This document shows, in pieces, positions 1 to 64,000 of a stretch of DNA of 64,000 bases; the first letter of the stretch is position 1; each line of letters starts with the position of its first letter. Location: positions 1,922,001 through 1,986,000 of the forward strand of contig OZ017757.1 in assembly GCA_963969365.1 (NCBI GenBank), read 5' to 3'. This DNA comes from Asterochloris sp. CNOR1. Its lineage: Eukaryota > Chlorophyta > Trebouxiophyceae > Trebouxiales > Trebouxiaceae. A program made the position numbers and the translations under genes. Below the pieces are notes generated by a model. That model was not told the DNA's origin. It did not search any database and saw nothing but the letters and a program-made list of their open reading frames with translations.

Positions 1-310
1 GTTCGCGCATTTTGCATTGATGCAGGGGCACATGCATGTCGGTCGCCCGTGTGCCTGCCCCTTCACCAAGTCAGGTGGCGCAGCAGTGCCCAAACGTCCC
101 TGCCTGCTCAGCTGCAAAGCAAGCAGGCGAGGCTCGTCGCTACATTTTTCTCCTGACCAGCCACCTACTTCTGCCTCACCGAGATTGGCACATGCTCTGC
201 TGGCTAGCCCATATGCCCAGCGCTTCATGTTGTCTGTTGGTGCAGCAGTGCCAGATGACCCTGCTCCACACGGCGGTTACCCATGCCGCTGCACAGCAAG
301 GGTGGCCTAC

Positions 311-1131
311 CTTTATGAGTTTCTCTTGGTCGGCTGCCCACTTCATCCGCGCAGCCTCACTGGGAGGGGCTGCAGACTCTAGCGCACCGACTCGCCTGGC
401 GATTTCAGTAAAGGCCTTCTTGCTAAAGCTGCTGTTCTCCTCGCTGAAGGACTGGCTGCACTTGATGAGCCGCCCAGCATTCATGACCTGAGTGGGCAGG
501 CCCGAAGCAGTGAGCCTAGGAAGTGCGCATCAGTGCTCAGGCATAACCAAAGCACTTTGCATGTCTCTCATGCGGTGCTGGGATGGCTGCACTTGATGAG
601 CTGCCCAGCATTGAGCACCTGAGAGGGCAGGCACATGGCAGCGAGTTGATGTGGAAGGTTTTGTGTGCAGTGCAAGAGCTCAGTGTCAGCCTCCCTCAGC
701 CTGGGTAGTCTGCATGAGAGCTGGGGCACAGTAAACAGAGCTTTGCAGGGTGAGGACTGCCTGCACTTGAAAAGCTGCTTCATGTAGAGCCCCTGAGCAG
801 GTAGGCATGATCAATCTCATGTTGTATTTGCACCGCAGAAGGCCATAGATTTGGCCACGGCTGTGGCTTTGCATGGAGGATTACCAAGCACAGCAATTGA
901 TCATGTCACCCCGTCTGCAACAAGCATAGTGCATGTCTCTAATTACGCTGTGAAAAATCCACTTGCCTTCTCCTCCAGCGCCCTTGCTGCCGCTGCATTG
1001 GCCTGTATGCGATCGTCAAAGGACTGCACTGTGAGGCAGGCATTGGTGAGCCTCTCCAGCTGAGACTCCAGGTAGCTGATGTATGAGGACCGGTCAGTGA
1101 GCAATTTGTCTGGCTGGATGTTTTCTGCATC
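311..1131 (-). CDS. Coiled-coil protein, two internal exons (partial)
   Basis: Two exons join in phase on the minus strand. Exon 1131-967 (55 codons) reads AENIQPDKLLTDRSSYISYL and continues into a heptad-like helix ending ARALEEK. Exon 487-311 (59 codons) starts VMNAGRLIKCSQSFSEE, contains KKAFTEIARRVGALE and ends at a good donor (GTAGGC). The donor after EEK is GC, not GT (AAG then GCAAGT), an accepted minor class. The charged, helical composition suggests a coiled-coil structural protein. I do not recognise the family. The 5' exons (beyond 1131) and the 3' exons (left of 311, probably past the window edge) were not resolved. The intron holds two decayed copies of the start of the second exon (see repeats). 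Confidence 0.5.
450..810 (-). repeat. Degenerate tandem copies of an exon start in an intron
   Basis: Three related segments on the minus strand each begin with a TCAG acceptor-like end: near 489, near 627 and near 793. They translate as VMNAGRLIKCSQS, VLNAGQLIKCSHP and LYMKQLFKCRQSS. The one at 487 is the real exon start; the other two are decayed copies lying upstream of it. Confidence 0.6.
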
Positions 1132-2123
1132 CTACAGGGATGAGCCGACCACTGAAAGGTGGCACAAAGTACTTCTGGTGCCCTTGAAAAGAGCTGAAGC
1201 GGCCATGAATAATGTGCTGAGTGTGGCTTACCCTTGAGTTAAGATAGCTGGCGTCACGAGAGTGCTGCTGTGCCTTAGCATGCCGGACACAGTACGAGTT
1301 GCCTCTGTGGGCCAGCATGAAAACAATGCTGTTATGGCGAGACTACAATTGACTCATCAGCTGCAGAGCCGAAGCAGCAGCACGTCCAGCCTCTAAGTGA
1401 TTGGATTGCATCTACACTGGTCACTGTTCTGGGCTTCATGAACTGGTGTGGTCAAAGCTTGTGGTCAACAGCGGATGCCAAACGCGCGTCTGATCAGCCA
1501 GCAACAATTCTGATGTACATGGGGGAACTGCCATGACAATTTGGACGCTGTTGCAGGTTTGTGGTCAGCTGCAGGTGCTGAGCTGCGCAGGTTGCTCGCT
1601 GATTGGCTTACTGTGTGATTCAGGCATGCCTGCTCATGGTGAATGGAGTGGCAGTCCTCAATAATGAACGCTTCCTGGAACCATGTAAGCAGGCTTTGCA
1701 GTAGCACCAGTTGACACCATCTGGCCACACAGCAACACTCTCCCTGTACAGATGGCTTGGGATACTCCAGGCTTGGAGGCAGCAACACAATGGACGATGG
1801 TGCAAAAGGCTTGAGGGCTCAGATCATTGGTGCCTTGCACGCAGTGGCATACCTTCGAGGTGTGCTTCTCTTGAGCTTGTGCAGACAAGCCCGTGGCTCG
1901 GGCCATACTTGACAAGTGTGCTGCTGTATGCAGTGCCGCTGATTGGGGTCAACATGCTGGTGATCTTCCTCAAGCTGTTGGTTGGCTGAATCTCCTGACA
2001 GCCTAGTTTTGAGCAGAGCTGCCTCTCTGTGTCTTTGTGTGTGGCGCAAGGAACAGGAATGAAATGCACTTTCAAGTGGCCAGAACTGGGCTGTGCAAGC
2101 AAAACACGAGAGGTCTGATTCAG
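1132..2123. other. No recognised gene
   Basis: I see no exon I can support here. The stretch lies between the resolved exons of the coiled-coil gene and the stop codon of the SEL1L-like gene. It probably holds 5' exons or introns of the former and the 3' UTR of the latter. Open frames present on both strands are short and have no recognisable content. Confidence 0.4.
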
Positions 2124-7637
<5,514 letters not shown>

Positions 7638-7929: not shown

Positions 7930-10900
7930 ATGGCAGAGGCAGCCGTGGAGATTCCTGGGTTGGAAAGCACTCTGGCTATGATCAAACCTGACGCTGTGAA
8001 GGCTGGGAAGGCGGAGGAGATATGTCAGCTAATTGAGCTTGCAGGCTTCACGATTGTGGCCAAGCAGAAGCTCCAGGTGGGACGCCCATGGCATGCCAAT
8101 TCAGCTGGCATGGGTGTGTGAGAGCTACAGCATAACATCTAAACAGTACAGCACAACTGATGCCTTTGGCATCCTTTAATCCATTGAAGCTCGGCCTGAC
8201 CATGCCAAACCTGCATTACACTGCGTGGGGCCATTTTGCCTTGTCTACTCTCCGTATCAGCAGCACGGTGCCGAGCAGCTCAACAGTGCATGCTTCCCCT
8301 GCTGCCTGAAGCGCCACTATCTGGATTTGCTTCACGCAGGGCCCTGCATCATGCCTGCAGCATATGATGTGCCAGGTCTCTGCCTTCTGCAGGCAGCTGC
8401 ACTGCTGCATGTTTCCTGATGCAGCTGAACACGCCAGTGTGCAGAGCAGCCAGGTAGAAGAGCACTGTGTCCTTGCAGCTGCAGCAGACAGCAGTGATAG
8501 CGGACACCGTCCCTTCCATCCCTGTTGCACTGTCTGAGCCAGGGGACAGAGGCACTAATTCAGAGAGCACTGCATGCACCTGACATGCACATCTTGCAGC
8601 TTGCAATGCTGAGTCGCCCTGCAGTTGCTGCGCCAACAAGCAGGAGCGATCTTACGGGGAGCTTTGCAGTCGCCCGCTGCATGTGAAGTGTCGCATCACT
8701 ACCTGCTGCAGCTGACGCTGTTGAGGAGCCTGCTGCTATCGACCGCAATACCAATCAAGGGCTTCACATCACTCCAAGCTGCATCTGGCGCCAGAGGGCA
8801 GAGTGCATCCTGCCTGCTGCAGCTGACTGAGCAACACTTGGACACCACACCTGTTCCCTGCTGCAGCTGTCGCGCCAGCGGGCAGAGGAGTTTTACGGAG
8901 AGCACAAGGGCAAGCCCTTCTTTGAGCGCCTGGTGGCCTTCATGACCAGCGGACCCATCTATGCCATGGTCCTGGCCCGCGAGAACGCCATCTACCAGTG
9001 GCGCACCCTCATGGGCCCCACCAACGTGTTTGTGGCGCGCGCTGAGAAGCCCAAATGGTGAGTGGTGCCAGCTCATAGCGTCCTTTGACCCCTGTGCCCG
9101 CACACAGCTGCTCATCTGGATGCATCCAGCCAGATAAGCACAGTTTGAGGTCTGCTGCAGTCCGCTGTCTTTGAGTCTGGCATGCAGCATCTCATGTCAG
9201 GCACATGCTGTGGAGCTCAAGTGAGAGCCTGTCAGGTGAACGTTGGCAGCACTGAGCCAGGCCTGGCTGGGGCTCTGGTGGCGCCATGCAGACACAGCTC
9301 ACAATCAGGGTGACAGCGTGTCAGCTGTCTGCATGCCGCCAGCGGCCTTGTCATCCCTGCACCTTCTGACCTGCCAATGCGTCTGCCCTGTCTGCAGCTT
9401 GCGCGCCCTGTATGGCACAGACGGGACCATGAACGCCACCCACGGCTCAGACTCTCGGGCGAGTGCTTCTCGCGAGATCAGGTTTCACTTCCCTAAACTT
9501 ACTCAGGTGTGTCTTGGCAAGAGCGGGCGCCTGCATACGGACGCGATGCTGCATGTCACACAGCCTGTCACACAAGTGGCCATGGTCATGCTGGTGGGAG
9601 CCATGAAGGTGGGCACCCTGAGGAGTCCTGTCATCCAGATTTGGAGGCATCTTGCAGCAGCGCTCCTGTGGGCTGCCGCTTCAGCAGTGCAGCTCAGAGC
9701 ATGTCACAGCCGCTCACAGGGTTCCTGCAGCTCAGAACAGCTGACGCTAAACCACGGTCCAGCGTGCAGCAAATCCAGGTTCCTCCCTGCTGGACTCTCA
9801 GCTGGACGTACTGGCTGCCTTGCAGTCCATCATCGAACAGCTGACGTCAGTGCTGAGCAGTTGCACCTGCAAAGGTCCTCTGCAAGGGCATTGCTGAGCT
9901 CCCTGCAAAAGACTCTACCATCCAGTGCTGATTTTTGGTCCCATGCATGCAGCCCTGGCAACGCATGGCACTCACAATTGCATCCAAAACTTTCAAGCTG
10001 CAGGACCCTCTACGGGATGCAGCAGCAGCCACAATGGCAGCAGCCACAATGTCAAGCAAGTGTCTTGGCGGACCAGGGGTCGCCACAGCCATCACTGATG
10101 GGCCTGTGACAATACAAACCTCGTCTGAGAGTGCTTCTGCCTGCAGGCTGCTTCTGCCTGCAGGCGCCTCTGCCAGACGCAGCAGCAACCCAGCAATGTC
10201 CCAGCAATGTCCCTAAAAAACATCTGGACACAGCGCAGCGCCTTCATGCCTGCAAATCCTTCTGCCAGACACGGCAGCAGCCCAAGCCAGCCCAGCTCCT
10301 GCCTGAGCCATCACGGACAGTCCTGCCCTTGTCCTTGTGGCGTCCCAACATTTGAGACTGTCTCCACCTGCAGGACCCTCTGCCAGATGCGGCTGCAGCC
10401 CAGCAGTACCTGATGGACCAGCTGGAGCCGGTGCTGCTGAAGGGGCTGACGGAGCTGGCGCGCTCCAAGGCGGCCGCCAACCAGGCGGAGGCGCTGCAAT
10501 TCCTTGGGCTGTGGCTGCGGGACAACAATCCCAACAGGGTGGGTGCCCCATCAAAGCTACGTGTGCCAACTGACCAACGCCAGTGCAGGACTGGCACACT
10601 GGCAGGTGTGTGCATCTTGGGGCTGTAGCTGCAGGTTACACCAACCTCAACAAACTGGGCAGGCTGCGCAACCCCCAAGTGTCTTGCTGGCGTCTGGGAC
10701 CAGTGCAGTGACAGGCACAGCAGCTTCCTTGTGCTCCAGTCATGTGGCAGTGGCTGCAGGACAATGACTCTGACAGGGTGCCCGGCACAGTCCTGCTCAT
10801 AGGCGCACTTGCAACATGGGCTTGCTTGCACTCTGTCTAGAGCTTGCTGCTCATGGCCAGGCACTGCCCCTTTACCACACACACTGAAGGTTGAGTACCA

Positions 10901-12365: not shown

Positions 12366-15300
12366 CTAGATCACAGTGCCACTGGCAATGATGCTGTCCT
12401 TGATGATGACAACAATGCCATCCTTGATGACGAAACCCTCATTCTCCCTATTAGATTCCATCACGCCCTCCTTGTTCAGGATCTGGACGTTGCTCCCGAT
12501 GCGTGCATTCTTGTCAATGATGCACTTGCGAACGTGGGTGTTGGACCCTGCAGGCCCAGACACACTGTGTTTGAAGGTTCCCCAGGCATGGTGCTGCCAG
12601 CAGCAGGCTTGCTGCCCCCAAGCCAGGACAAGGCCATGATGCTTGGGCTCTCTTGTACAGAGAGCAGGAATCAACTCTTGTCATGCAGGCTCACCCAGGC
12701 CCATGGGCAGGCAGCCAGGGATGAGGGCGCACTCCTCCAGCGTCTCATAGTAGTCAGAGCCCATCACCTGCAGGGAGCACACTCTGAAACTGCATCCTGC
12801 TTGCAGGCAGGAGGAAGCAGAGCAGGCAGCCCTCAGGCAGTGAGCCAGCCACTGCTGCTGCCCCAAGGACAGCACTGCAATGGACGGTCTGTGTCAACAG
12901 CATGTCTCAACAGCATGACTCACCAGGGCATCCTCCACAGTGCAGTTCTCATTGATCAGCGTGCGCAGGCCGATGACCGAATGCTTGATGTTGCACCCTG
13001 CACGGATGACTGTGCCGTCCCCCAGAATGGAGTCGCTGATCTCAGCGTCAGCCACCTTGCTGGGGGGCAGGAAGCGCGACATCGTGTAGATGGGGGCATC
13101 AAAGTCGTAGAAGCTGCAGGCAGAGTGAGCAAAATTGCTAGAAGGTGTGACTTGCCCACCTTTTTCGTGGGTTTCAAGCGTTGAGAACCCATATGTGCAG
13201 CCTTCAAGCATGGCATGCGGGAGGGGGGGGGGGGGGGGCAGAAGGTGCAACGAGGCGTGCACGGGAGCAATTAAGGTGCAGAAGCTGCAGGCACATGAGA
13301 TATGGTGTATGCTGAGCAGCACAGATTGCCCAGAGCTTTGGCAAGAGCAGAAGTGAGGGTTTGCAAAAGCGACACAGCCTTGCAGCAGGTGTAGAGGCAC
13401 CAGGGTCTGTATCACCCAGCATGCTGCAGGGCAGGCACTTAGACGAGGGCTGCAGAGTTGACTGGCTGCCCTGACCATGCAAAGGTTCAGGAGCTGTACA
13501 CGGGGCAACGCAGAGCTCAACACACAAAGTTGTGCGTCTTGGCTGGAGCCCCTGGTTGCAGTCCACACTGTAACCTGTACCCGAGCAGGCGAAGGCAGAC
13601 TGTGGGGCAGCTGGCTGGCTGCACCTGATCAATGTCATGGGGCCAGGCAACCCCAGTCGGTCCACGGCTTAAAGCAGGTAGCAGCTGAGCTGCTGCTGGG
13701 GGGCGGCATGCACCCGACGTCCACCGCAAGCAGCAAGCAGCGTCTTGGGGCGGCATGCGCCCAGGCAGGCACAGCAAAGTCCATAGACGGCAGCAGACCA
13801 CTGACCTGAAGTCCGGTTTGGGGCTGTTGGTCAGCGCCAGATTGGACTGGTAGAAGGCCTCAATCGTCCCAATGTCCTCCCAGTATCCATCGTACAGGTA
13901 GGCTTGCACGTGCATGCCCATGTCCTTTGCGCCTGGGATGACCTCGCTGCCAAAGTCGTTTGCCTGCATTGTGAGGGGCACTTGGCAATGGTGCAGACAG
14001 CTGAGGAGAAGAGCGCCTCTGATGCTGCTGATGACCTCGCTGTTGAAGTTACTTGTCCGCAGCACGAGGGCAAGGGGGCTGGCAGGGAGATGTCCTTGTT
14101 GGCAGGCAGGGTGCACACGCACGAGAGCGAGAGTTTCCCAGTGCCAGAGATCATCTCTTCACCAGACTCTGGCCGGCTGGAAGGGGGGCAAGGAGTTGGC
14201 AGGGGTCTGCAGCTGTTGGGTGAGTGCATGCAGCTGAGGTGCAGAGTTGTTCTTGGCAAGTGAAGGTGCCGGAGTCATGGCAGGTTGGGACAGCAGCAGG
14301 CAATCGGGTGGATACAGGCACTTGGGGCCAGCTGGGGATTGCGCAAGTCTCTGGCGCCCCACAGGGAGCAGGTGCTCCAGCAAATATTGTGCAGGATGCA
14401 ATTTGCAGACACAGTGTTGCACTGCTGGCTTCAAGTTTCTGATGCAGCGCACTAGCAACATCAGCACTGACAGGTAGCAGTGCAGCATGTTGGCATGGGT
14501 GGCTGCCCTGGTACGAACATACAGCAGCAGTGCTTGGCTGTGTTCCCAGGCTCACATTGGGGAAATACTCTCTGAGCAGCTTCTTGATGGCGGACGCCTT
14601 CAGCACATAGATGCCCATGCTGGCGATGTAGGGCATCTTCTTAGCCCTGCAGTCATCCAGGAAGCACTGCCTGCGAGCGGCGAGGCAGTCAAGCAGCAGG
14701 TGTACTGGCTGCCAGGCTGCATGCGCAAGCTCAGTCGCTATGGCGGTGAGGGCACAGGGGTAGTAGCCTTACAAGGGGGAGACAGCTTTCCACTTGACCA
14801 GTACAAAATATGGCATGGTAGCACCAAGCTAACCAGCCGCCCGAGATGCAGAGCAGATGCAGCATTAGGTGACTTGCTGCCCCCAGGAAGGGCAGGAAGT
14901 GGCCAGCTGTGCAGGCTGACACCGCAGGAGACAGCCAGTTGTGCAGGCCAGGACTGAATACAGCAGCCAGCTGTATTGGCCAGCACTGAGGGAGGCAGGC
15001 AGCTGTGCAGGCCAGGAAGGGCAGGACCCAGTCAGCTATTGCAGGCCAGCAGTGAGTGAGGTAGGCAGCTCTGCAGGCCAAGGCTGGCAGCACTCATACG
15101 CCCACCTCTCAGCGTCCAGGCCCAGCTTGGTGGTGTCCACCTGCATTGCCCTCAGCGCATCCCCCTGGGGCTTCTCCGCAAAGTCCTGTGAGCACATGGA
15201 TGGGCAGGGTCAGGCCTGAGGTGAACAGTGATGTTAGATGTTGCTGTGGCCATCTCATACAGTGGGCACACCCCTGCTGCATGGCCAAGTGCATGGAGGC

Positions 15301-17500
15301 GGTGTGATAGTGCACCTACAAGCCATGTCCCTGCAAGGCTCTGTCAAAATCAAAAACAAAAGATAGATTCATTGAGCAGGCTAGTAATGCCCTCCTACAC
15401 CAGTTGGACTGCAAGACCTATCCCCAGTGCAGGCCACTGCGCTCAATGTGATGGTGCTCCTTTCATTGACCTGAAGCTACCCGGGTGCACTATTGCACTG
15501 CTGAGAAGGCCAGCAGTTCTGCCAAGAGCAGCATATGGCAGCATGCGCCCTCAAGATAGCACGAAGTTGGCAGGGAGGCACAGGCATGCACGGACACAGC
15601 ATTGGAGTGAGTCAGCGCGATACACAGCGCCTGGGGCAGGCCAGAGGCCAGGGCTCACAATGATCTTGCCGCTGTCATTGATCTTCATCAGCCCAAAGGC
15701 GGCGGCCTGCTTCTCGTCCGTGGGCAGCGCTGCAACTGTGATGTCAGCCCCCGACTTCCGATGGGTGTGCACAAAGTCTTGGTAGTTCATGCGGTACAGG
15801 TGGTCGCCTGCAGGGGTAACAATTTGACTCAGCTGGAAGGGACAGGTCGGTGCAGCCATGCTTGTGATCCAGTGGTGGGGCTGCACAGTGAAGCCCTGCA
15901 GCGAGAGTCGCTCCTTGCCTGAGCCTTCTTCGCTCCCAAGGGAAGCCTTTCAATACCGATGCCCTAGCGTAGGGTGCCCAAGATAGAGAATGCCCAGCAC
16001 CTCCCCAGGCCCGCATATCAAGAGTACAGCTGCTGTCTGGTAAGGCCGGTTGAAGCTATGTCATGTAGCTCAGCCAGAGACAGAGCACTCTCCCTGATAT
16101 GCGGGCAACCCATTGGGTGAGGTGCTGTGCAGTGTAAGTCGGCACCCAGCTTCTCGCGACGCACAAATCAAGCAGATGTTCCAGCGCCCCTCTGGCTTGG
16201 CTAGTATAGGCTCATGGTCATGAATGACTTGCCCCGGCGTCCCAAGACCTGCTCAGAGGCTGGCATGACATGATGTGCTGCTCCTGTTGGACAGATGTGC
16301 CTCAGCCCAGCCCCACCTGACAGGATGAGCAGGTCCTCCACGCCGCCCCTCTCCGCATCCTCAAATAGCCACAGGTACTGTCTGACAGCGTCTGCCGTCC
16401 CCTGGAACCACTGCTTGCTCACAGTGCTCTGGCTGGCCGCCAACACCTCAACGAAGCCCTTGCTGTTGTAACCGCCTACGTTGGAGTTCTGCAGGGAGGA
16501 CAGGAACACCGAATTGAGACCTGTTGTTGTTGACTGCATGTTGAAGATCCGGGAAGGAATGAGGTGCGCCTCGCCAGACGCACCAGAATCCCATAGGGAA
16601 GGGCTGCTCAGTAACACGCAGATGGGCACCAATCTGCGGCAGGGGTGGGGCGTCCATCCCCTGGCCCACACAATGCTGGCTTGAGTGCTGGCTGGAAAGA
16701 CACGCATCCAACTCCTCCAGGAGAGGAGTGGATGGGCTGTGTTGTCTGCAGGATGCTCAAGTTGCTTGAAGAAATGCACTGCCGGAAGATGTGCGTGCTG
16801 CGCAGATGCCAACATTGAGCAGGCAGCATGAGCCTGCGCACTAGGAGCCTGCGCACGAGGAGCATGCGCACAAGCGAGAAACACACCAGGGAGCATAGGA
16901 ACACGGCGTGCAACTCTCAGGTCAGCACAGCGCCTTCCCAGCAATGCCTAGGCAGCCTGCAGGGATACAAGGTCGCCCCCACAGCGGCCGGGCGAGGCAA
17001 GGACGCCAAACTGAGCAAGCCTTTTGATGAGGTTGGATGGACAGGAGAGCAGCAAAAGGCAAGATACACAGAGCTGCAGCGCAGAGCCTGCCCTCATGCC
17101 TGGGCACTCGGTGAACTGCCGACCCTGGTTCAGGCGCACTCACATAGGCCTGGGAGAGGTGCCTGTTGAGGGAGGCTGAGTTGAACTGGGTCAGGCAGTA
17201 GATCTTGTTGACATTGCTGTTGATGCAGTTGCTGACAGGGATGTCGATGAGGCGGTAGTTGGCTCCCAGGGGCACGGCGGGCTTGGCCCTCTTCTTGGTG
17301 AGAGGGTACAGCCGAGAGCCGGCGCCGCCACCCAAGATCACGCCCAGCACCGTCTGCAGCGCAGTAGTAACATCTTGATTGTCTGGGAACCTGCAGGGTA
17401 GCAAGCTGCGCCGCTGCCCAGGATCAACCCCAGCACCGTCTGCAGGGCAACGGGCACCTGGCTGCACAGAGAGGCTCAGAGGTGATTGTGTGCCTGGCAA
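12366..17500 (-). CDS. ADP-glucose pyrophosphorylase, small (catalytic) subunit
   Basis: Makes ADP-glucose from glucose-1-phosphate and ATP in the plastid, the first committed step of starch synthesis. Exons lie at about 17367-17145, 16494-16319, 15808-15655, 15186-15105, 14648-14545, 13965-13808, 13116-12925, 12772-12693 and 12552-12366. Diagnostic blocks: [20 protein letters not shown] (nucleotide loop), [51 protein letters not shown] (sugar-phosphate binding), [37 protein letters not shown] and the end [16 protein letters not shown], keeping the C-terminal lysine linked to 3-PGA activation. The N-terminus is uncertain: an in-frame ATG at 17500 gives a 44-residue leader, but part of that leader overlaps a decayed copy of the exon start, so the real transit-peptide exon may lie further upstream. 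It is convergent with RSP23. Confidence 0.93.
13223..13238 (+). repeat. Poly-G run in AGPase intron
   Basis: Sixteen consecutive G on the plus strand (C on the transcribed AGPase mRNA strand), inside the intron between the 13965-13808 and 13116-12925 exons. Length is likely to vary and sequencing errors are possible here. Confidence 0.9.
14885..15100 (+). repeat. Minisatellite-like tandem repeat in AGPase intron
   Basis: About four imperfect units of roughly 50-60 bp, each with a core like CAGCTGTGCAGGCCAGGA or CAGCTCTGCAGGCCAAGG, at about 14900, 14945, 15000 and 15065. It ends just before the exon that encodes [10 protein letters not shown]. Confidence 0.6.
17405..17455 (-). repeat. Decayed copy of the first conserved AGPase exon edge
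   Basis: Plus-strand CCCCAGCACCGTCTGCAG here parallels GCCCAGCACCGTCTGCAG in the real exon (17325-17370). On the minus strand the copy would encode [11 protein letters not shown], against [11 protein letters not shown] in the exon, each directly after CTGCAG. The copy lies about 80 bp upstream of the exon. Confidence 0.75.
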
Positions 17501-17818
17501 TGCCAGGCTAGTACTGGTCTTGGTGTCAGTGTGCAGCCGCGAGTCAGTGTCACGTCAGCAGCGCAGGGCTACTGAAGACTTTCTGGGCTCTGCTTGCAGC
17601 ATGTCTGGTGTGAACCTCTCCTGCCTGAAAGTCCTGGTGTTTCAGACCAGAGGAAGCTGCCCTCCAGCAGGACACGCCAAGCAGAGTGCTCACCTTCAAA
17701 GTGTCAGGCAGGCCGGCGCCAAAGCTGCTGCCTGCCAGAGACGGCACCCCAACCTAGCTGTCAGGAGGGCAGATCAAGCTGCAGGCTCACATCAATCTGC
17801 TTCTCTGCAACCGCTGGC

Positions 17819-41800: not shown

Positions 41801-43102
41801 AATATCAGGCAGGGTCACTGCCGGCAGGGCATCGACGTCATGGTGCGCCCAACTTTGCACAGCAGAGGCTCAGTTTTAGTGATGAGAGGCAAAGCATTAG
41901 CACAGGCTGGAAGGTTCAGCGGAGGCAAGTGCTTAGTGCAAGCCTCAAGTAGCACAGGCATGTCTGCAAGTCTGAGGTCTGCACAAGATCCAGTCAATCT
42001 CACGCTGCACCCACTCCTGCACGGCACAGGCTGGCGTGCTTGGCAAGACATATGCAGACGTGCAGTGGCAGGGTAACTTTCTGCAGTGCATCACATAAGC
42101 TGGACGGAAGTTTGTCAAAAGAAACCCACAAAAATACGACTTTGGTGGAATCTCAACCTGCCACAGAGACAGTGCTGCATTTCACGCTGTCCAACTTGAG
42201 GCAGCCTGCCTGTGGCAGAGCTCATCAGCCAGCAGCAGTGCGCACAAGAGATCACACCCTGCTTGAGACAAGCCTGCTGCAGATGCTGGGAGGAGCACAA
42301 GCCATGCTTCCCAGAGGTTCTGCTTGTGCCAGCAGCACTTAGCAGCTGGGGGGCAGCATCCAGCCATAGCATAGCAGCCACATGCCCTGTGACAGCTGAC
42401 ACAGACCCACCTGCGTCAAGGGCCACGAGTCTCCAGCAATGCGCACAAAGGGCAGTCCCTGCTTGAGGCACACGGCGCCGGTAGGCCCCTTCACAATGTA
42501 TACAAAATTGATGTTGCCATCGCCCACTTCAGTCACCTGTACAGCACTGAATGCCGTCAAGGCTGCAGACAAAGGTCAGCCAATGCTGTGGAGAGCCATC
42601 AGGGCTCACAGCCCCGTCTGTGCAGCATAGACAACACAGAGACCACACGCTCCAAGTTGTGTGCATGAATGGGCTGCGAGAATCATTCATATCCACATTC
42701 TTCCTTACCCACTACGGCGCTGCTGTGTGTGTCTATTGCAAGCCAGGGTGCCTCATGAATGCATAGGTGCACTTCGAAACACAGGAGATGATGTTGACAC
42801 GCACAGAGCCAAGATGATGGTGAGACACACAGAGCCGATCTTGCGCCGCCTACTGAGGTCACCAGCAGGGAGCGCAGACAGTGTGCAGACGGCGCAGACA
42901 TCAGTAGAAAGGTGTACAATCCGCTCTGATTCAGGAGCCCCGACGTAGTCAAGGCAGTCGCAGCAAGAGCTGACGCTGCCAACTTGCCTCCCACTGTGCC
43001 TTGCTGTCAGCTGGCCCCAGCCGCTGAGCCAGGTGCGGCTTCTCAGCAAGGTAGTCCTTCACTGTGTGTGTGTCCAGCGCTCTGAAGCCAGGGATGCTGC
43101 TG
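38831..43102 (-). CDS. MTK: 5-methylthioribose kinase
   Basis: Phosphorylates methylthioribose in the methionine salvage (Yang) cycle; cytosolic. Exons: about 43102-42988 (FRALDTHTVKDYLAEKPHLA), 42536-42412 (VTEVGDGNINFVYIVKG), about 41790-41595 (HVPEVYHYDQQYALIVMQYL, PPHMILRK), 41280-41166 (AIYPKLAEHISTFLAQTLFK), 40945-40765 (EMCRLTEQVIFMDPFYAAAV), 39999-39770 (QALLHGDMHTGSLMVTQD, IDAEFAVYGPIAFDVGKFL), 39530-39345 (VWNLFKAKFLELWDGHKDG), 39205-39020 (FGGAVMLRRIVGIAHIEDFQ) and 38965-38831 (ICERRALLMGRRLLV, ending KQPCFT). The catalytic loop HGDMHTG and the metal-binding DAE are present. The first intron uses a GC donor (TGGGAG then GCAAGT), which joins the frame exactly. The initiator exon was not found. 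It is tandem with the isomerase upstream. Confidence 0.92.
40085..40397 (-). repeat. Copies of the MTK catalytic-loop exon edge in its intron
   Basis: The real exon start (39999) encodes KFITEAQALLHGDMHTG after CTGCAG. At 40144-40088 the minus strand reads LSITKIEALLHSDMHTS, also after CTGCAG. At 40397-40352 a weaker copy (plus strand TGTGCAGCAGCGCCTCGGGA) again ends at CTGCAG. Spacing from the exon is about 145 and 395 bp. Confidence 0.85.
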
Positions 43103-43424
43103 ACGAGCTTAGATCTGCCAGCATGCCCATTCTGATCTGCATGCCCATTTGCCTCCTCGTGCAGCAAGCCCTGCAGAACCAGGCAGCAGATCTGTTGAGG
43201 CAAGGACTGCTGCTGGTCAGCCTTGGGCTCAACAGCAGGTCCGTGCTCAAGCCAATGCCCCTGCGCCTCCTCGTGCGGAGGAGGCGCTGCAGCCAATCAG
43301 GATGTTGCAGGCCTCTCGGGGCAAGAATCCTGCTGACCAGCAGAGGATCAGCAGCAGGTTCACTTCCATCTAAAATGCCTGATGCTTTCCTATGCAGGCA
43401 AGGTAGGAAGCTGGTGTAAGCTGT

Positions 43425-46400: not shown

Positions 46401-46578
46401 CAAGAGAGAGAGCTGCTGCAATGGCTATGGCGGGAGCCCCCCTGACTGCCATATCTTTGATGGCAGTCCAAGCTGCTGAAACGCCATCGATCTGCAGCCA
46501 AGATTCCTCCAACGGCAATCTGCGCTGATCCAGCAGCTGCAAATCCCCTGGCCTGTACTGAATGGCGACGAGCGGCAT
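43425..46578 (-). CDS. MTNA: Methylthioribose-1-phosphate isomerase
   Basis: Converts methylthioribose-1-P to methylthioribulose-1-P, the step after MTK. Start ATG 46578 ([20 protein letters not shown]). Exons: 46578-46305 ([20 protein letters not shown]), 46088-45935 ([20 protein letters not shown]), about 45700-45487 ([20 protein letters not shown], with the catalytic Cys), 44991-44798 ([40 protein letters not shown], with the catalytic Asp), about 44375-44226 ([20 protein letters not shown]), 43968-43840 ([20 protein letters not shown]) and 43486-43425 (basic tail ending LSCILPA). The last junction is phase-consistent. It is a member of the eIF2B-related family; the catalytic motifs make the isomerase call firm. 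Tandem with MTK, same strand. Confidence 0.93.
43985..44042 (-). repeat. Copy of the last-but-one MTNA exon start
   Basis: Plus-strand TGCAGGCGTTCACGTCAAGC then AAGGGTCCACACCTGCAG repeats the real exon boundary (43935-43970: TGCAGGCGTCACGTCAAAGC then AAGGATTCCACACCTGCAG). It is nearly identical over about 40 nt and lies about 65 bp upstream of the exon in transcript direction. Confidence 0.85.
44630..44725 (-). repeat. Pseudo-exon copy of an MTNA catalytic exon end
   Basis: Minus-strand [20 protein letters not shown] then AKHDK is a decayed copy of [20 protein letters not shown] in the exon at 44880-44800. The copy lies about 160 bp downstream of the exon's donor. Nucleotide similarity is clear over about 75 nt, including GGTGCCAATCTTGTTGGCTG on the plus strand in both. 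Confidence 0.9.
44985..45300 (-). repeat. Copies of an MTNA acceptor edge
   Basis: The exon start at 44991 (plus strand AAAAGCCGTCAGCCTGGCAC then CTGCA) has weaker relatives upstream in the intron at about 45075-45110, 45170-45210 and 45245-45290. Each has a GCCGTCAGCCT-, CAACCTGACACT- or TTGTCAGCCTT-like core followed by a TGCA. Confidence 0.5.
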
Positions 46579-50390: not shown

Positions 50391-52423
50391 TCAGCTGCTT
50401 ACGTGCGCCAGGAAGCCCAGTCTCTGGGAGTCAGCCAGGTCAAGGATCTTCTTGAGCTGCTTGGCAATACTGACCTGCAAGCCATTATAGCGCTCACAGA
50501 TGGCAGCAGCACAGGCTAAGTAAAAAGCAGCTGCAGCTGGGTCTCCCACACAACCTTCTCAGCCAGGCAGAATGCCATGACGCTGAGTGGCATATTGTTC
50601 AAGTCAATGCAGTCACAGCCAGCTGCTGGCAGGGCCTTCCAAGCACTGCCAGCTGCAGGAGAGCCACCAAAGCTGCCAAAGGATTGCAAAACACAACAGG
50701 AGTTCTGCTGTTTAAGCCTGCAACTGGCATGCTAGCTGCAGACTCTATGTGGCCTCAGCTGTGGCGTCTCCACAGCTGACGCGTCTGGGTTCAGTCACAG
50801 CTATGCTACTGTCAATGGCGCGATTGGCCCAACAAAAGCTGTGTGATCACAGAATTGGTGCAGCTAGAGCAGGGCCCCACCTGTGCTGCCTCGTTGGCTG
50901 CTGTCTTGGTCCAGACGCAGACCTTGTCCTGCTTAGCACGCACATTCACAACGATGCCGCAGATCTCGTCACCCTCTGTGAACTGCTCGCCAATGCACGC
51001 CAGCAGCTGCAGCAGATGGCAAGGTCGTGTTAGGAGAGTGATGCTGGCCAGGGGGCCTGATTGTGCTTCGGTGCATTGCTGAACAAGACAAGAGCTTGCA
51101 GCACTGCGCATCAGCATGGCCACTACAGAGAAGTGCACAAAACTGGTCATTCATGGCGCGTACTCACACAGTTGCATCGAACACAGCCAGCAGCTTGGCG
51201 ATGATCATGTCCCATGGGCACCAGCACAACCCAAAGCAAGCGCCAATGACACCGACCGCACGTCCTCCAAGTCCATATCTCACTGTGTTAAGCCAATAGG
51301 TGTCCAGCTTGGCTTTTGAGTCGGGGCCCTTGGGCACCAGCACAGTCCACTTGCCGCCACCCTCGCACATGGGGTCCTCCCACTTGGGCTCAATGTTCTC
51401 CTTGAACAGGTGGAAGTCCACACCAGACTGCACCCAGCTGGGGGGCTTGATGTTGTTGTACAAGCTGCACAGGCAGGTAGGCGACGTCAATTACATGCAG
51501 CAATTAAGTAGGAGCTGCACTTGGTTGTAAGCATGGAAGCGATTAAGCAAGCTGCAAAACAAGGGCTGGGCATTTCTCAGTGAAACAAGCCCATGCCTGA
51601 TGCACTGAGCTGCAAGTTTTGAACATCTTATGCAGGCTGCAAAGCCAGGCCAGCATAACAGTGAAGCAGAGAAAATTTTGCGTCCAGCTGCGCACGGCTC
51701 AGGGAACTTCAACAGTTGCAACAGAGTCCGCCGGCCAGAAGATCAGCAAAGGGGCTGTGGGGCAGGCAAATATGCAGGCACCAGAGAGACGCACTCAGCA
51801 AGGCAAACCCTGTGCCGAAGGCAGGCAGCAAGAGCAGAACAGCTTTAAGGCTGATGACCCTATATTGGGCTTCTGCGAGCAATGTTGAGAGCACTCACAG
51901 GAGGAGTCTGTCAAGCACAGCTGAGCAGCAGGAATGTTCCCATGTGCTCCGTATAGCTGGAACAGATTGCACCAACAGTGAAGTGCTGTCTCAAAGAGTC
52001 TAGGCAGCCTGTGGGTCTTAAAAGAATGCCTCAAGTGTCAAAGCAGTTGCTTTGACCGTTGGACTCACCACCAGAAGTCCTCCACAGTGTCAAATGTATA
52101 GACTGCCTTCAAAGAGGAGCCCCAATTGGCCTGCTGCTTGCGGCCGTTAGGATTGTCGAACCAGAGTGTCCACCTGCATTGCACAATGCCTCCTTCAGCG
52201 AAGCATGTCAGCCTGCAGGTGGTGCTGCTCTGCTGTGCAGTCCAGCAGGCAATGCCAGGCTGCAGCCTCCATCCAGGCCAAGCCACAGGCCAGGCAGGGT
52301 GCAAGTGTTTAGCATGCCCCTGCAGACGGCAGACCTGTTCTCCAGCGGGTACTTCTTGCCAAAGTCAGGCTCTGAGTCCTTGCCATGCTGGATTTCACCA
52401 TCCTCCCTTGCAGCATCCGCCAT
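50391..52423 (-). CDS. EIF4E: Translation initiation factor eIF4E
   Basis: Binds the mRNA 5' cap and recruits eIF4G. Exons: 52423-52348 ([18 protein letters not shown] ... KYPLENR), 52170-52069 ([31 protein letters not shown]), 51464-51293 ([40 protein letters not shown]), 51013-50870 ([32 protein letters not shown]) and 50474-50391 ([20 protein letters not shown] then FLAHVSS). The cap-stacking tryptophans (QANWGSS, PKWED) and the [11 protein letters not shown] block fit plant/algal eIF4E. The model stops at TGA 50391, about 12-20 residues short of plant proteins. A GTAAGC donor just before the stop may lead to another small exon. It is head-to-head with the FNBP4-like gene, 210 bp between starts. 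Confidence 0.92.
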
Positions 52424-54688: not shown

Positions 54689-54720
<32 letters not shown>

Positions 54721-57700
54721 CGCTGCTGGGAGCAGGTCTGCACAGGCTGGCGAGCTGCCTGACGGAGCCCAGCTTCGGGCGGAGGAGGCCCAGCACCCCG
54801 CTGCCACCCCCGAGGCCTTTGCTGAGCAGCGGCGGAAGGGGAAGGCTCAGGCAATCCCGGCTCCCATGCCGGACCTTGTGGCAGCTGTCCCTGTCATCAC
54901 GGCCCAGGCGCGGACCATGCTGCAGAGGTTTGCGGAGCAGGTGCCTCACGTGGTCCGCCTGGCAATTGAGGCAGACATTCGGCAGCAGGTGAGCACGCCC
55001 CATATGTAAAGCTGAATGCAATGGAATGGCCTTTCAAAACTCACCATCAGCTGCCCCTTGCGTAGCGTGCAGCCCACCGCACAAGTTGCCTGCCCAAGGT
55101 GGCAGCAGCTGAGACCTGAAACACCCACCAGCACGGAATCTTATTGATATTGTGTGAATGCAGGACTGGGCCCACTTTGCGGGCCTGCAGAGCGCGGCCG
55201 CAGAGCAGCAGGACCCTGGCAAGGCCCTGAGCTGGGTGCACTTCCAGACCCACCTCTGGCAGCGCTTCTTTGCCATCCAGCTGGAGCTGCCAGCTGCTGA
55301 GAGGGCAGCGCAGGCTGCACTGGCGCAGCTGCCAGCCGCTGAGCGGCCGGCTGAGGCAGCAGGGTCTGGGGCTATCAGTGAGGCAGGGACTTCTACTTCA
55401 GTGAAGCCAACTGCCATGCGCATGCCAGTGGAGGCAGTGGAGCCCTCTGTGGTGGTGAGACTGATGTCTGCTGTGGATGTACACCAGACAGGCAGTGCTC
55501 TGTGCATGCATGGATGCGGGAGTGGTCGGCCCAAACCAGTCAAGCAGGCTGCGTCTCGAAGACTGCCTCACATAGCCATCAGATGAAGCCAGCGCATGGG
55601 CCAGTCATCTGCCTTGGTGCGGCAAGCACTGCTTACGAGCTGACAAGCGCTTGGGCATCCCTGACTTGGCATCTTATGTGCTGAAGGGCATGTGTTACAC
55701 TTCATGCAGGAAGAGATGGAGGAAGGTGAGGTGCCATCTAGGACTGCTGCCGCGCCCAGCTCCCCTGGGGACAATGCTGTGCAGCCTCCTGCTGAGGGTG
55801 CTCAGCAGGCAGCTGCTGCTGCCGCCTTGCCTGAAGAGGCAGCTGGCCAGCCCGGCACACTTGCTGAGCTCCAGCAGCAGGGCTCTGAGGAGCCGCCGCC
55901 GCTGCCCTCTGAGGCAGTGCCACGTGGTGCAGACGGCATTGCAGAGCAGGCTGGTGTTCCGCCTGACAGCGCTGCTGGCAGCAGCATTTCTGTATCAGAG
56001 GCTCCTGTGCCAGAGCTAGTTTCGAAGGCAGCCTCAGGTGGGCACCCTGGGCATGTCCCTGCTGGCCGTTGCCAGGAAGCTCGGCCTGCCTGGCCAGGGC
56101 CTGTACCTGACACAGCTGCGGGTCAGCACCTTGTGTGCATGTGTCTCGGCTGATTGTGGGCACTGCGAGCCGAGCTGCACTGTGGTGCCTGACTTGCCTT
56201 ATTGTTGTTGATGGCAAGGTCAGCCACAGTGGGCACCCCATGCATGTGCATGTGTGCGCTCTGAGCATTGCAACTTCTGGTAAACTGTGCAGCCCAGGCT
56301 TTCCAGAAAAGAACCTGTAGGTTTCTGTTCGTTTCTGGTATCGCAGAGCGGCATTCAGTGTGGCCTCAGCCCAGCATGTGACCCAGGGTCCTGCCTGCAG
56401 TCGGGCCAGAGGCAGCTGCAGCAGAGGAAGGGGGTGAGGCACCCCCGCCTCTGCCAGCAGAGCCTGACGCAGTGCAGCCAGCAGAGGTAGAGGCGACGCA
56501 GCCAGCTACAGCAAGGCAGGCAGTTGATGATGATGACATGGATGTGGACATGGAGCTTGATGTAGACAGCCCCAAGCAGGCACAGGCCGCAGGGGCAGGG
56601 GTCAGCGCTGCGCATCAGCACCTGCCCGCCTCTGTTGGGCTGGGCATGCACAGCGCCTCGTGGGCTCCCTTCCTGGTGCCCCCGCAACCACTCATGCCGT
56701 ACTATGGCATGCCGCTGCCAGGCCACTTGCCGCCGCTGCCTAGCACTGTGGCGGCTGCTGTGCCTGCCCCCGCAGCGCCTCACGTTGCAGCAGCAGGTAA
56801 CAGCCTGGCTGCTGGTGTGGCGTCCTCAGCCAAGCGCAAGGCGTACGCAGCAGAGGCCCAGCCAGCAATGCCATCCCAGACCGCTGCCCCTGCTGCTGCA
56901 GCGTTGCCTGCTGTCAGTCCACCTGCGGTGGACGCTGCTCAGCCTCAGCGGGCTCCTGAGGTGAGGTCGCGGCCACTGGCATTCTTTGTGGGACCTGGTT
57001 GTTCTGCCCTGCTTTGTGCTCTGCTCTGTGCTGTCTTGAACATGCTTCCCTGGGCAGCCACTTGAGCGACTGTGTGGGGCCACATGCGGCTTCCCTGTCG
57101 TCTGTGGAGGCCTGCACAGCGCTGTAGGTCCACTGCAGGTCTACACACAGCATCATAGGCAGCCCCAAAGTTTACGTTTTGCCCGAAGCTGACCAGGCAG
57201 CGTTACAGGTTATCCTGCTTACATGATTGTAGGCTGCGAGTGCCAGCCAGGTTGAGGCAAACAAGCGCAAGCGGGAGAGGGCAGCAGTTGCTGTGGGGCC
57301 ACCCTCCAAGAAGAAGAAGGCAGCAGGCGGGGCTGCCAAAGGCATGAGCAGTCTACTTGACAAGTGGGCTGCTGTGCGCAAACAGGTGGTGAGCAAAGCA
57401 GTTGACACGGAACACAGTAACATCTTGCCAGAGGCCTTTGTTCTGTGCACAGTGCAGCAAACTGAATTTGTCTTACTAGCAGGCCAGGGCTTCAGTTTGC
57501 TCCTGACTGTTGCTTCTTTTGTTGGGAGCTGACAATTATGGGCACACCGAAGGCCTTGCTGCTCACCCCAAAGCAAACAGCAGGATCACATCACACAGCC
57601 TTTCCAGTGATGTGCAGAAGCAGCTGGCAAAGCATGACGTGGCCTGCTGACCTGGAGGCAGCAGGCACTCCATGTGTTGGTATGAGGGACACAGTGACCT

Positions 57701-58934: not shown

Positions 58935-59003
58935 CATTTAGGTCTTTGGCTGGCACCCTGTGATTCTTTTCGTGCCCAATGACACACCTCTGCCTCTACA
59001 GTG

Positions 59004-60105: not shown

Positions 60106-63100
60106 ATGATGTTGACTGCATCAGCCATTGCTGCTGCTAAGATGCTGACCAGGCAGAGGGGCGTTCAAGGAGCTGTGATGCATCAGGGTCTGCCCCTTTG
60201 TGGCCAGCTGACCCCAACAGCAGCACCTCGGTGCGCGGCTGGCTGTAATCGGCAGCTCAGCTGCCTGGCGGCAGACACCTGGAGCCAGCACATGCAATCC
60301 TGGACCCAGCATCAAGGGGCTCGCCATGGCCTGCGCACCATCTGCTCCAGCCAATGGCAGGACCAGCAGAGGAGGTCTTGGCGCGAGGGCAGGCACAAGC
60401 AGCATGCCTTCAGTGTGCTACACACGAGGCTCATCTTTGGCAACACCTCAAACGATGAGCAGGACAGGTCAGAGCTTGCTGCGCGGGGTCCATGTCATGA
60501 TGGCTGCAGTGGTACCCCTTTGCCTGTATGATGAGCAGGATGGGGCAGCACCACGCATGCTGGATGCTTGTGCTCAGCACTGCTTGTTTTCCCATCGCAC
60601 TGCATTGTACCTTCAAAAGGATGTGGTTTGCTGACCTGGGCAGGGCAGCAAGTCAATGTGCTGCTTTTAGACAGCACATGATGAAGGGGGCTGTAGCTCA
60701 CCCTAGCTTCATCTCCGTCCCGTCAACCAGGCAGACTGTACCTGCTACTCATCTGCCGGCTGAACTGAACAATGGCTGCCGCGCAGCAGGCCTTGGTTGT
60801 GGTGCCATTTTTTGCTGCATCTTGAATCAACTCTGCCATTCTGCAGGCAGGCTGTTGACCTGATGCGTGCTACCTGGAGCTGCCTGAAAGCCTTGCAGCC
60901 TGTCCTTATGCAGCTGCACTGGATGCATGCCACCTCCGGCAGGTGCTGAGATGGTAGAACGTGTGCCACCTTATATGCATGCAGGGCCAGCGCTGCTCGT
61001 TGAGCATGTAAGCCCTGGGCCTGATAGACGACATCGGTGGCAGGTCTCCAAGCCTGCACGCCACCTTTTGCTGCCTGCCCACTGGCTCTCTGCACCTCTC
61101 AAGGCAAAGGCTGACCCAGAGCTGGCGGTGTCCTGTGCTGGCAGTATGTCAGTGCTGACATGGTGAGCTAGCTCTCTGCTGCTCTGCAGGCAAGCCCTGG
61201 GCTTGACTCATGCCTCCTTTGGAGACAACGGTGTGGCCTCTCCACCTGAGCCTCTCTCAGAGCGCGAGAGCCGGGCCTTCCAGCGAGAGCTGCACACCGT
61301 CAATGTTGGTGAGGACATCTGCAGCATACCAGCCCGGGCAGAGGCCTGTGTGTGACATCAACGCCCAGTCCAGGGTCTCACTGTGGCCAGAATTTGCGGT
61401 GTCAGCCTATGCGTGATGCTGTGGCATGCTGAATGGCGATGCACTCTGCCACAGCAACATGATGCCTGCCCATGCTGCTGCAAAGCCTGCGGCAGTGATG
61501 TCATGCTTGAGTTACGCGCAGACATGTGTGTCCATGCAGCCATTGGCCAGCACCTCTGAATATGTGTCGTGCTGCAAGCTCTGACATGTTGCTGTGTCTC
61601 TGCAGCCATCTCAGCCAACATGGCCATATTTGTGGCTAAGATGGCTACCTTCTGGGTGTCTGGTAGCAGCGCCATGATGGCAGAGTCCATCCATTCTGTG
61701 GCAGACATCTTCAATCAGGTAGGCCATCGCTGCTTACTCTGCAACACTCAACAATGTCTATATACCTCAGGCTGCCTGCTGGGACAGCGGCAGTGCAGCG
61801 CCTCCCAGCCTGCACATGCACATATGAACTCAGGTGCACCAGCAAATCTGCCCCAAAGTCCTTTCAGTCGTGGGGCATATCTGTGCCTGCATTGCGGCTT
61901 GACCAAGGGTGGGGGTGCTTGTCTGGGAGGCAAGCTTGCCCTGCAACATGGAAATGTCCAGCAGCTGATGCCCTGTTGCTGTGCGCTGCAGGTTCTGCTG
62001 CGGATGGGCATTGTACGCTCCAAGCGGGCTCCAAGCGCCATGCACCCCTACGGCTACATGAAGGACAAATTTGTGTGGTCCCTCATATCAGCTGTGGGCA
62101 TCTTCTGCTTGGGAGCTGGCGTGACAGTCATGCATGGCCTTCAAAGCATGTTCCTGGAGAAGCAGATCGAGCATGTCGCAGCCACAGCCGCAGGTGAGGG
62201 AAATGGCAGTCACGGTACCCTCCTGAGCACTCTCTGACTGGCGGCAGGTTGTGCGTTGCTGGCAAGCCAACAGACCCGCCTGCGCATCAGGAGGCAGCTC
62301 CTGGCGACACAGAACAGCTTAACCGCTGCGTCATGCAGTCACCCAGCTGCTGTGCTTGGTATCTGTGCAGGTCTGAGGCATCCCAGTGTGCTTGAATGAT
62401 GCTGCCGCAATGCCATTCCAATGCTGTTTGGCAACTGCTGACCAAAAAGTGCCTGGTGTAGTCCTAGGGCTCAATATGTGCTGGAGGGCAATGCGCTGCT
62501 GGTCCAAAGTGTTGCTCTGCTTTGTGCAGTCCTGGGCTCTCCTCTGCCCATTCCCACATCAATTGTGGAAGTTGCTGCCCTCATGTCTCCACAAAGCAGC
62601 CCCACGATTCTCATGTGTGCTGGACAGCCGCTTGCTGCTGCTTAAAGTACTGCCCTGCTGTGAGCAGTCCTGTTGCTTTCCTCTGAACTGCCTCACATGA
62701 TGTGAGGGGGTCATTGACCAGATATTCTCTGATGCAGTCCTGGGGCTCTCATTTGTGCTGGAGGGCTACTCGTTGCTGGTGGCTGTGCGCACAGTGGCCG
62801 CAGGGGCAGCCTCCCATGGGCTAACCTTCATGGAGTTTGTGCGGCGCGGCATGGACCCCACCAGCATTGCTGTCATGATGGAGGACGGCGCAGCAGTGGC
62901 AGGCCTCGTCCTAGCCGGTGAGTGATGCTTCACATGTTGTGGGCAGTCCAGGCTGTCCCAAGCTGCTCAGACGGGCTGGCCCAGCACCAGTGTATCTGGT
63001 AAAGCCTGGTGTGTCAGTGCTGGGCCATATCCTGGTTGGCAAGGTATGTTCTTGAAGTTGACAGGCTGCCAATACATGCTGTTCAAAGCTGCCAATGCAG

Positions 63101-64000
63101 GTTGTTTGAGCAGCAGCAGACCTTGTGCTTCTCTGGCTGCAATGTTGTGTTGTTACCATCTGACTCATCATGAGACTAAACCCTGTCATAAGTTGAGCTT
63201 TGGCAGCTAGCGCGTGGGCCCCTCTGTGCCAGGCAAGGTCAGCAGTGGCGAGCCCAGTGCATGCCAATAGTACCTTTGCTTGCCTGTGTACCAGTGAGGG
63301 GTTTTCAGCATTGCGGTGACGCAGGCTGGCTTAGCAGCGGCAAACCCAATGCTAGCTGGTAGGTAACGCTGCTCAGTTGTGCGGCATCAGCAGGTCCAGA
63401 GCATGGTTCTGGATGCCCTTTGTGCTTGGCGCTGCAGCAATGATGGGTCTGGTGCTTGCTGGTGGGTGCACTTTGAGGATTTGGAGTTGGAGGGCTGTCA
63501 GCTGCATGCGCTGGCTGCCGCAGCAGCAGTAATATGGTTGCTGGCTTACAGCTGACATCTGGCTGTGAAAGTCTTGCTGCCTGCCACAGTGATTCATGCC
63601 GGCTGGCCAAGAGAAGGGTTTACAGCCTCACTTCGGCACAGCTGTCAGCAGCAGCCAGCTTCCTAGTCAGCACAAGTCATGGTCTGGGCTTCCAGCACAT
63701 GCATATGCAGCGTATCGCCCAGGGACACTTCCTTGGCAGCCTTCTGCACCAGCAGCCAGCCACATAACAGGAGACAAAGCGCACAAAGCCTGTGGCTGCC
63801 CTGCAGGCATTGCCACCTTCCTGACGTGGCAGACGGGCAGCGGTGTGTGGGATGCCCTTGGCTCCATAACCATCGGCATCCTGCTGGGGGTCACAGCGGT
63901 CTTCCTCATACAGAAGAACAGGCAGCTCCTCATTGGTGAGCCGGCAATGTCCTGCACCGTGAGGTGCAGGACTGTCGCGTTGGACTCAAATCATCTGCTC
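60106..64000 (+). CDS. ZNT9/SLC30A9-type cation diffusion facilitator (3' end outside window)
   Basis: Zinc/cation transporter of the CDF family; the animal ZNT9 is mitochondrial. Start ATG 60106; exon 1 to about 60470 is a long Arg/Gln/Ser-rich leader (MMLTASAIAAAKMLTRQRGV), consistent with organelle targeting. Next exons: 61190-61308 (LGLTHASFGDNGVASPPEPL), 61606-61719 (ISANMAIFVAKMATFWVSGS, ESIHSVADIFNQ with the metal-site HxxxD), 61992-62193 (MHPYGYMKDKFVWSLISAVG), 62736-62919 (LGLSFVLEGYSLLVAVRTVA, GMDPTSIAVMMEDGAAVAGL) and about 63806-63935 (LTWQTGSGVWDALGSITIGI). The MDPTS...MEDGAAV block is typical of ZNT9. It continues beyond 64000; the cytosolic C-terminal domain is not in the window. 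Confidence 0.9.
62455..62650 (+). repeat. Copies of a ZNT9 exon start in the preceding intron
   Basis: The real exon (62736 on) starts GTCCTGGGGCTCTCATTTGT then GCTGGAGGGC. Upstream copies: 62459-62505 (GTCCTAGGGCTCAATATGTG then CTGGAGGGC...GCTGCTGGTCC) and 62595-62640 (TTCTCATGTGTGCTGGACAG then CCGCTTGCTGCTG). Weaker GCAGTCCTG edges lie near 62528 and 62665. Confidence 0.85.
63330..63475 (+). repeat. Copies of a ZNT9 exon end and donor in the following intron
   Basis: The real exon ends GCAGGCCTCGTCCTAGCCG then GTGAGTG (about 62919). Downstream copies: near 63340-63370 (CAAACCCAATGCTAGCTGGT then AGGTAACGC) and 63437-63470 (ATGGGTCTGGTGCTTGCTGG then TGGGTGC). The second would encode MMGLVLAGG, against VAGLVLAG in the exon. 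Confidence 0.7.

Follow-up and report, generated by a model that had tools for sequence, protein, structure and literature searches.

Decayed copies of exon edges in Asterochloris introns suggest growth by local duplication across splice sites

Introduction

In potato RdRp, according to the available text of the report (PMC4974935, which cites Gao and Lynch 2009 and Hellsten 2011), an upstream intron-exon structure has been duplicated, and a separate 83-bp tandem duplication lies within an intron. The likeness to the introns described below is that the local duplication includes splice signals; the difference is that one new intron arose there, whereas the present case appears to be a lengthening of introns already in place, at either end and across many genes of one genome. 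Tandem duplication and intron sliding in Drosophila (PMC2891723) likewise alter gene structure through duplication near splice sites, but the cases are few and judged by new intron positions, and the accessible part of that paper describes no decaying edge copies. Exonize (PMC12343006), as presented in its available text, sorts exon duplications into partial, inter-boundary and intronic classes, and matches between an exon and an intron of its own gene, including spanning ones, already form a named class there, with counts for 20 eukaryotes; it is, however, a tblastx-based catalogue, and junction position, polarity, decay and intron length are not among the tests set out there. Inter-boundary exon duplication, a direct copy spanning exon and intron of one gene, is what is found here.

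Two other systems are related at one remove. Introners, as far as the accessible account goes (PMC9860276), also bring about a mass change in the intron content of a genome, but they copy themselves into many genes, whereas here the copies have their source in the exon beside them, and we saw no dispersed family. Pol alpha-primase fill-in (PMC8355091) is a DNA-level source of short direct duplications; those described in its available text follow induced breaks in human and mouse cells and are tandem, with no link to splice sites.

An earlier note on the DNA considered here had described introns holding decaying copies of the adjoining exon edge together with its splice site, and put this forward as its best candidate for an undescribed phenomenon. 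That last point was put too strongly, since intron-exon tandem duplication (PMC4974935) and inter-boundary matches (PMC12343006) are already in print, on the available text of both papers. In a literature consisting mostly of non-subscription sources we found no account in which introns lengthen genome-wide by way of decaying edge copies, and the new part is the excess of junction copies over that expected from exon constraint alone.

Materials and Methods

The window, the whole stretch of DNA first analysed (C12:1922001-1986000, 64 kb), belongs to a eukaryotic genome of 56.38 Mb in 21 contigs. Gene models came from a semi-Markov gene finder self-trained on the window and four 50-kb blocks, one each from C1 (C1:1000001-1050000), C3, C5 and C9, a sample of 264 kb or about 0.5% of the genome; self-similarity was not among its inputs. 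The trained splice consensus was CAG/GTGAG for donors and CTGCAG/G for acceptors (slash at the junction), and the final run gave 440 introns in the 264 kb. Its faults were fusion of adjoining genes and the taking of some decayed copies as exons. The names SEL1-repeat, RSP23-like, eIF4E, HSP20, WW-domain and cation efflux are presumed from motifs.

As an independent check, PDB relatives bear out the exon joins of AGPase, MTNA, MTK and the aldo-keto reductase. The gene finder missed one short AGPase exon and eight residues at one exon end; the predicted AGPase agrees with jgi/Astpho2/7450 at every one of the 459 residues aligned (another 23 positions are gaps), which places the window in Asterochloris, a green alga of lichens. 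"Astpho" is the JGI code for Asterochloris sp. Cgr/DA1pho, whose published genome has 56 Mb, 10,025 genes and a mean of 9 introns per gene, in a paper whose main text does not contain the word "tandem" (PMC6652019).

Exon edges were compared with their own introns, the control being up to 150 unrelated exon edges against the same intron; introns outside 60-2500 nt, or with an edge of <25 nt, were left out of the 440. Comparisons with 50-nt probes used exons of at least 150 nt. Scores alone are cited from the edge scan, whose single-letter shuffle p-values are too lenient. Copy alignments cover 66 of the 79 matches found, 13 falling below score 18 and being dropped. Flanks were tested on full 60-nt edges only (65 matches, 63 testable); in a separate flank analysis 3 of 79 lacked room for a flank. 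Sixty of the 79 aligned at a score of at least 20, and 46 of these 60, with spacers of 25-250 nt, form the spacer set. In constraint-only simulations exons changed at 7% of the intron rate under uniform tandem duplication or duplication plus filler, and 1% chance was removed; the ratios relied on come from runs with unique exons.

Results and Discussion

Introns match the edges of their own exons

At p ≤ 0.01, 79 of 867 exon edges in the 264 kb match their own intron, about 8.7 being expected from unrelated edges (33 of 435 exon starts and 46 of 432 exon ends); against order-1 Markov resamples of the same intron the counts are 37/435 and 48/432. The presence of exon-edge copies in introns is thereby confirmed. 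Matches are found in the window (24/207), C3 (17/167), C5 (22/161) and C9 (12/132), with almost no effect in one of the five stretches, C1 (4/200). Within the window they fall in six of nine gene-finder genes, some of them merged, which after splitting by hand become nine, as many as had been claimed at the least: the SEL1-repeat, RSP23-like, AGPase, MTNA-MTK, eIF4E-like, WW-domain and cation-efflux genes and those at 22.5 kb and 35-37 kb; the aldo-keto reductase array, found by TRF, adds a further gene. Two or three copies are significant at 17 of the 79 matched edges and one at 59, the remaining 3 being lost on resampling; by score, copy series stand at exon starts 3736, 39996 and 62738 (Table 1).

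Table 1. Genes and putative edge copies in the window (coordinates within the window; names marked "presumed" rest on motifs).
Feature	Position	Strand	Evidence
SEL1-repeat gene (presumed), edge copies at three introns	943..7490	-	gene model
SEL1-repeat matched edges	intron 2712-3469 end; 3737-4136 start; 4203-4616 end	-	own-edge test
Decayed copy of exon start 3736 with TGCAG, edge part -23..+60	4049..4131	-	score 32; ungapped pair d=372
Second decayed copy of exon start 3736	4252..4314	-	score 27; d=575
Perfect 30-bp tandem duplication across donor of exon 4617-4904	4599..4658	-	TRF 100% match
Copy of exon start 10374, RSP23-like gene (presumed)	10145..10195	+	score 29; d=210
Further copy of exon start 10374	10249..10284	+	score 22; d=118
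AGPase small subunit gene, joins verified	12366..17985	-	1yp2 alignment; JGI protein jgi/Astpho2/7450
Copy of AGPase exon start 17353, with CTGCAG	17408..17449	-	36/42 identical
Copy of AGPase exon start 13113	13233..13293	-	d=171; p=0.015
Copy of AGPase exon start 13963	14030..14070	-	d=93; p=0.016
Aldo-keto reductase array, about five 35-nt units	32428..32592	-	TRF; frame against 1lqa
MTNA-MTK fusion gene, 5' end not fixed, joins verified	39039..46491	-	2pyw, 4ldq, fusion homologues
Copy of MTK exon start 39996, edge part -9..+50	40091..40147	-	score 28
Further copy of MTK exon start 39996	40357..40400	-	score 21
Copy of MTNA exon start near 44987	45061..45107	-	score 26
Copy of end of MTNA exon 44792-44987 (real stretch 44809-44859)	44663..44713	-	d=146
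Copy of end of eIF4E-like exon 51284-51464 (real 51327-51349; presumed)	51211..51233	-	d=116
Copy of WW-domain exon start 57723 (real 57713-57742; presumed)	57608..57637	+	d=105
Copy of cation-efflux exon start 62738 (presumed), spacing 276 = 2 x 138	62439..62503	+	score 35
Nearer copy of cation-efflux exon start 62738, spacing 138	62596..62640	+	score 19

Short direct repeats at local spacings far exceed chance in the window. Ungapped direct pairs with a score of at least 18 number, per 1000 diagonals, 330 at spacings of 12-100, 220 at 100-200, 90 at 200-400, 12.5 at 400-800, 3.8 at 800-1600 and 5.6 at 1600-3200, and there are none at 6000-7600 or 20000-21600. Detectable local repeats make up 10.6% of intron bases (0.55% at a control distance), and TGCAGG occurs in introns 226 times in sense and 313 times in antisense orientation. 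Lacking sense-strand enrichment of this motif, the introns are not mostly acceptor copies, and the strongest form of the original proposal, that introns are built mainly from edge copies, is not supported.

Several other features of the window are recorded here for their own sake. MTNA and MTK form one fused gene, and among the 120 homologues listed many proteins from green algae and land plants carry the two domains together. An intergenic direct duplication (33607-33758 and 33883-34056, spacing 276-298) has, by eye, a tRNA T-arm-like stem-loop, GTAGTTCAATTCTAC; ARAGORN found no tRNA in the window. A GCT repeat at 54689-54728 lies inside a predicted exon and gives an alanine run.

Position and polarity of the copies

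A sliding 40-nt probe, whose overlapping positions make the counts non-independent, peaks at the junction (p ≤ 0.01): at acceptors it gives 8/265 at -40, 36/264 (13.6%) at -20, 24/256 at 0, 9/245 at +20, 6/218 at +40, 2/199 at +60 and 0/175 at +80, and at donors 10/265 at +40, 34/262 (13.0%) at +20, 32/256 at 0, 20/241 at -20, 9/215 at -40, 4/192 at -60 and 1/170 at -80. Off the junction the rates are 1.9-6.8% for intron-only probes and 0-2.1% at least 60 nt inside the exon. With 50-nt probes, edges match on their own side in 20/191 and 25/179 cases, exon sequence 50-100 nt from the edge in 5/191 and 3/179, the first and last 50 nt of the intron in 13/338 each, the intron middle in 5/220 and 6/220, and intergenic DNA in 4/134; reverse-complement edges give 3/191 and 1/179, and the far side of the exon 0/171 and 0/171. 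At matched distance the own (intron) side has 19/452 matches, as against 5/452 on the far side, which is the chance level: the copies lie on the intron side of the junction, with the polarity first reported for them. This geometry (intron side, near the junction, direct) fits a duplication that needs the junction in order to be tolerated.

Are junctions special, or only more visible? Short duplications could be uniform along the DNA, edge copies being easier to see because selection has frozen the exon copy. The intron-internal and intergenic matches just given show that such repeats exist elsewhere, and junction and intron-only rates drop together in C1. Constraint-only simulations also produce some peak: three runs gave junction to intron-only ratios of 1.4-1.5 for the crossing probe and 1.1-1.4 for the exon probe, and earlier acceptor-only runs reached about 2.1-2.2, although there exons were reused, so that exon matches were under-counted. 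The ratios in the real data, after subtraction of 1% chance, are about 3.3 and about 2.8, and the intron-only probe beside the acceptor is at background (8/265), both of which speak against uniform duplication. When a two- to threefold junction preference was simulated, three runs gave 1.9-2.7 (crossing) and 1.9-2.2 (exon). It is thus likely, although not proven, the margin being moderate and dependent on the model and the simulation rates chosen, that junctions carry about double the number of copies that exon constraint by itself would give in simulation. Junction-straddling events appear, on the same simulations, to be two to three times as frequent as intron-internal ones, or as often kept, perhaps because the junction is a mutational hotspot, or because a duplication that brings a complete splice site along survives better. 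We consider uniform duplication, as the full account, rather unlikely.

Another possibility is that random segments from nearby are copied into introns when the polymerase switches template, and the copies are indeed often spaced and sharp-ended. Their sources, however, are exon edges; exon interiors at comparable distances hardly contribute, matches on the far side stay at the chance level, and inverted copies do not exceed it, which leaves this explanation highly unlikely.

Regional variation and intron length

C1 is the block poorest in local repeats, whatever their kind, and its introns are the shortest (median 222 as against 292-376.5, among five blocks only), with a GC content about equal to that of the others. 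That it is low in intron-internal repeats, junction copies and intron length alike suggests a single mutational process that varies by region. Where a copy is detectable, the intron is longer (median 432, n=74, vs 280.5, n=366), an argument weakened by the greater room for copies in a long intron.

The presumed HSP20 paralogues at 46.9-49.6 kb have three introns that align (scores 35, 62 and 48), with no exon-2 edge copy explaining their length difference. One of this head-to-head pair (48583-48640) reads AAG/GAGCGT at the donor position where the other has AAG/GTGGGT, and lacking the GT its second exon may end early. CpG observed/expected over the window and four blocks is 0.31-0.34 in introns and 0.44-0.54 in exons; the depletion, stronger in introns than in exons, may reflect methylation.

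Extent of the copies and the DNA between them

Copies are not confined to exon sequence: at least 5 nt of the intron beside the junction is included in 54 of the 66 well-aligned copies, and their positions along the intron, in five equal bins, number 9, 16, 22, 12 and 7. Aligned lengths run from 40 to 103 nt (10th-90th percentile) and spacings are mostly 70-400 nt, the lack of short spacings among the 66 being partly an artefact, those below about 65 nt having been excluded from that set by design. Below about 70 nt many best pairs abut; above it unrelated DNA separates many similar pairs, such as the 60 nt at C5:32008-32067 (92% identity, spacing 123). A duplicated intron flank, the sign of strict tandem duplication, accompanies 18 of 63 testable matches and 6 of the 22 most similar, as against 29/41 and 42/63 in simulated tandem duplication and 16/39 in simulated duplication plus filler. 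Strict tandem growth appears to account for a minority of cases (about two thirds carry the flank in the tandem simulations), clear examples being 4599-4658, the array at 32428-32592, whose outermost unit is the real exon start 32434 and in which two inner units keep TGCAG, and two near-tandem matches.

Filler drawn from elsewhere in the genome was considered and set aside: the four spacers searched, from 20, matched their own place only, in a search that skips very common words. Nearby similarity is direct in 16 of 46 spacers and inverted in none, and part of the "spacer" may for this reason be older copies. Plant-type end joining with filler could also add spacers.

Junction repeats around unrelated DNA resemble an insertion with a long target-site duplication, and direct repeats are associated with introns, so the copies might be thought to record intron birth, either by duplication of an AGGT coding segment (the Rogers model) or through introners. 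Rogers-type gain, however, duplicates an exonic unit, giving a new intron one unit long with the copy at its opposite end; here most copies cross into the intron and are spread throughout it. Introners leave many similar dispersed introns, and here the four searched spacers are single-place and the window has no pairs of score 18 or more at the two far spacings. Intron birth in either form seems more improbable still.

Decay of the copies

Mismatches between copy and exon are spread nearly evenly over codon positions 1-3 (20.6, 17.5 and 23.5%), 54 of 79 copies contain frame-breaking gaps, and synonymous changes are 32% of the total (27% if unconstrained), a small excess. To judge from these alignments, the copies behave as neutral relics decaying like non-coding DNA, and their decay had been read correctly from the start. 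By simple mixing, only about 7% of changes are on the exon side. C>T plus G>A changes number 215 from exon to copy and 144 in reverse, as if the copy were the derived side, an argument weakened by the higher G+C content of exons. Among aligned acceptor copies 20 of 25 retain AG and 14 of 25 TGCAG; GT is retained in 15 of 28 donor copies.

It is scarcely credible that the copies are exons spliced alternatively or to the exclusion of one another, some still in use: tandem exon duplication leaves an open frame and coding constraint in the copy, whereas the even mismatches and broken frames argue against coding exons, splice dinucleotides are kept only in part, and, although the gene finder called in-frame 72-nt exons over an MTK copy (40320-40391) and an MTNA copy (45057-45128), the PDB relatives (2pyw and 4ldq, respectively) have no such segments.

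Proposed course of events

The reading we favor, and regard as probable, is that short stretches of DNA are often duplicated in this genome, locally and in direct orientation, and that events astride an exon-intron junction are tolerated, the inner copy decaying and introns lengthening at both ends. Such a duplication would create two splice sites; if the outer one stayed in use, the protein would not alter, and the inner copy, together with whatever lay between the two, would turn into intron. Junction-straddling duplications would be tolerated because splicing keeps the outer site, presumably from the outset, and at a few genes homologous proteins support use of the outer site. The inner copy would then decay neutrally while selection held the exon, and repeated rounds would make introns longer from both ends. 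The DNA event itself would most likely be repair of a break or nick, in which ends are filled in and joined and additional sequence often comes to separate the copies. The excess, the polarity, the neutral decay and the derivation of copy from exon are shown by the counts above; immediate use of the outer site and the nature of the DNA event are inferred. The perfect 30-bp duplication across the SEL1-repeat donor, with its two in-frame GTGAGT donors, looks like the first step of such a process. Each of the rivals, namely template switching from random sources, intron birth, introners and alternative exons, fares worse on one of the tests above.

Of the earlier note's interpretation, local duplication across junctions, decay of the inner copy and, for a few genes with homologous proteins, use of the outer site are retained, and edge copies as the main source of introns, strict tandem growth and undescribed status are not; its statement that the real exon is always the outermost copy follows from the definition of an intron. 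A stronger version, in which splice junctions are hotspots of local duplication, growth is tied to transcription or splicing (for instance where structures formed during transcription lead to breaks) and intron length is for the most part set by steady edge duplication offset by deletion and decay, we hold to be decidedly doubtful.

Conclusions

When introns change in length, transposons and random insertions and deletions are the usual explanation. The introns of Asterochloris suggest growth from their ends, through local duplication across splice sites: a different length-changing process, whose traces can still be read in ordinary genes, at either end of the intron. Since the exon serves as an almost constant standard for comparison, it becomes possible to measure directly how fast introns grow, what becomes of duplicated splice sites and whether junctions are a hotspot.
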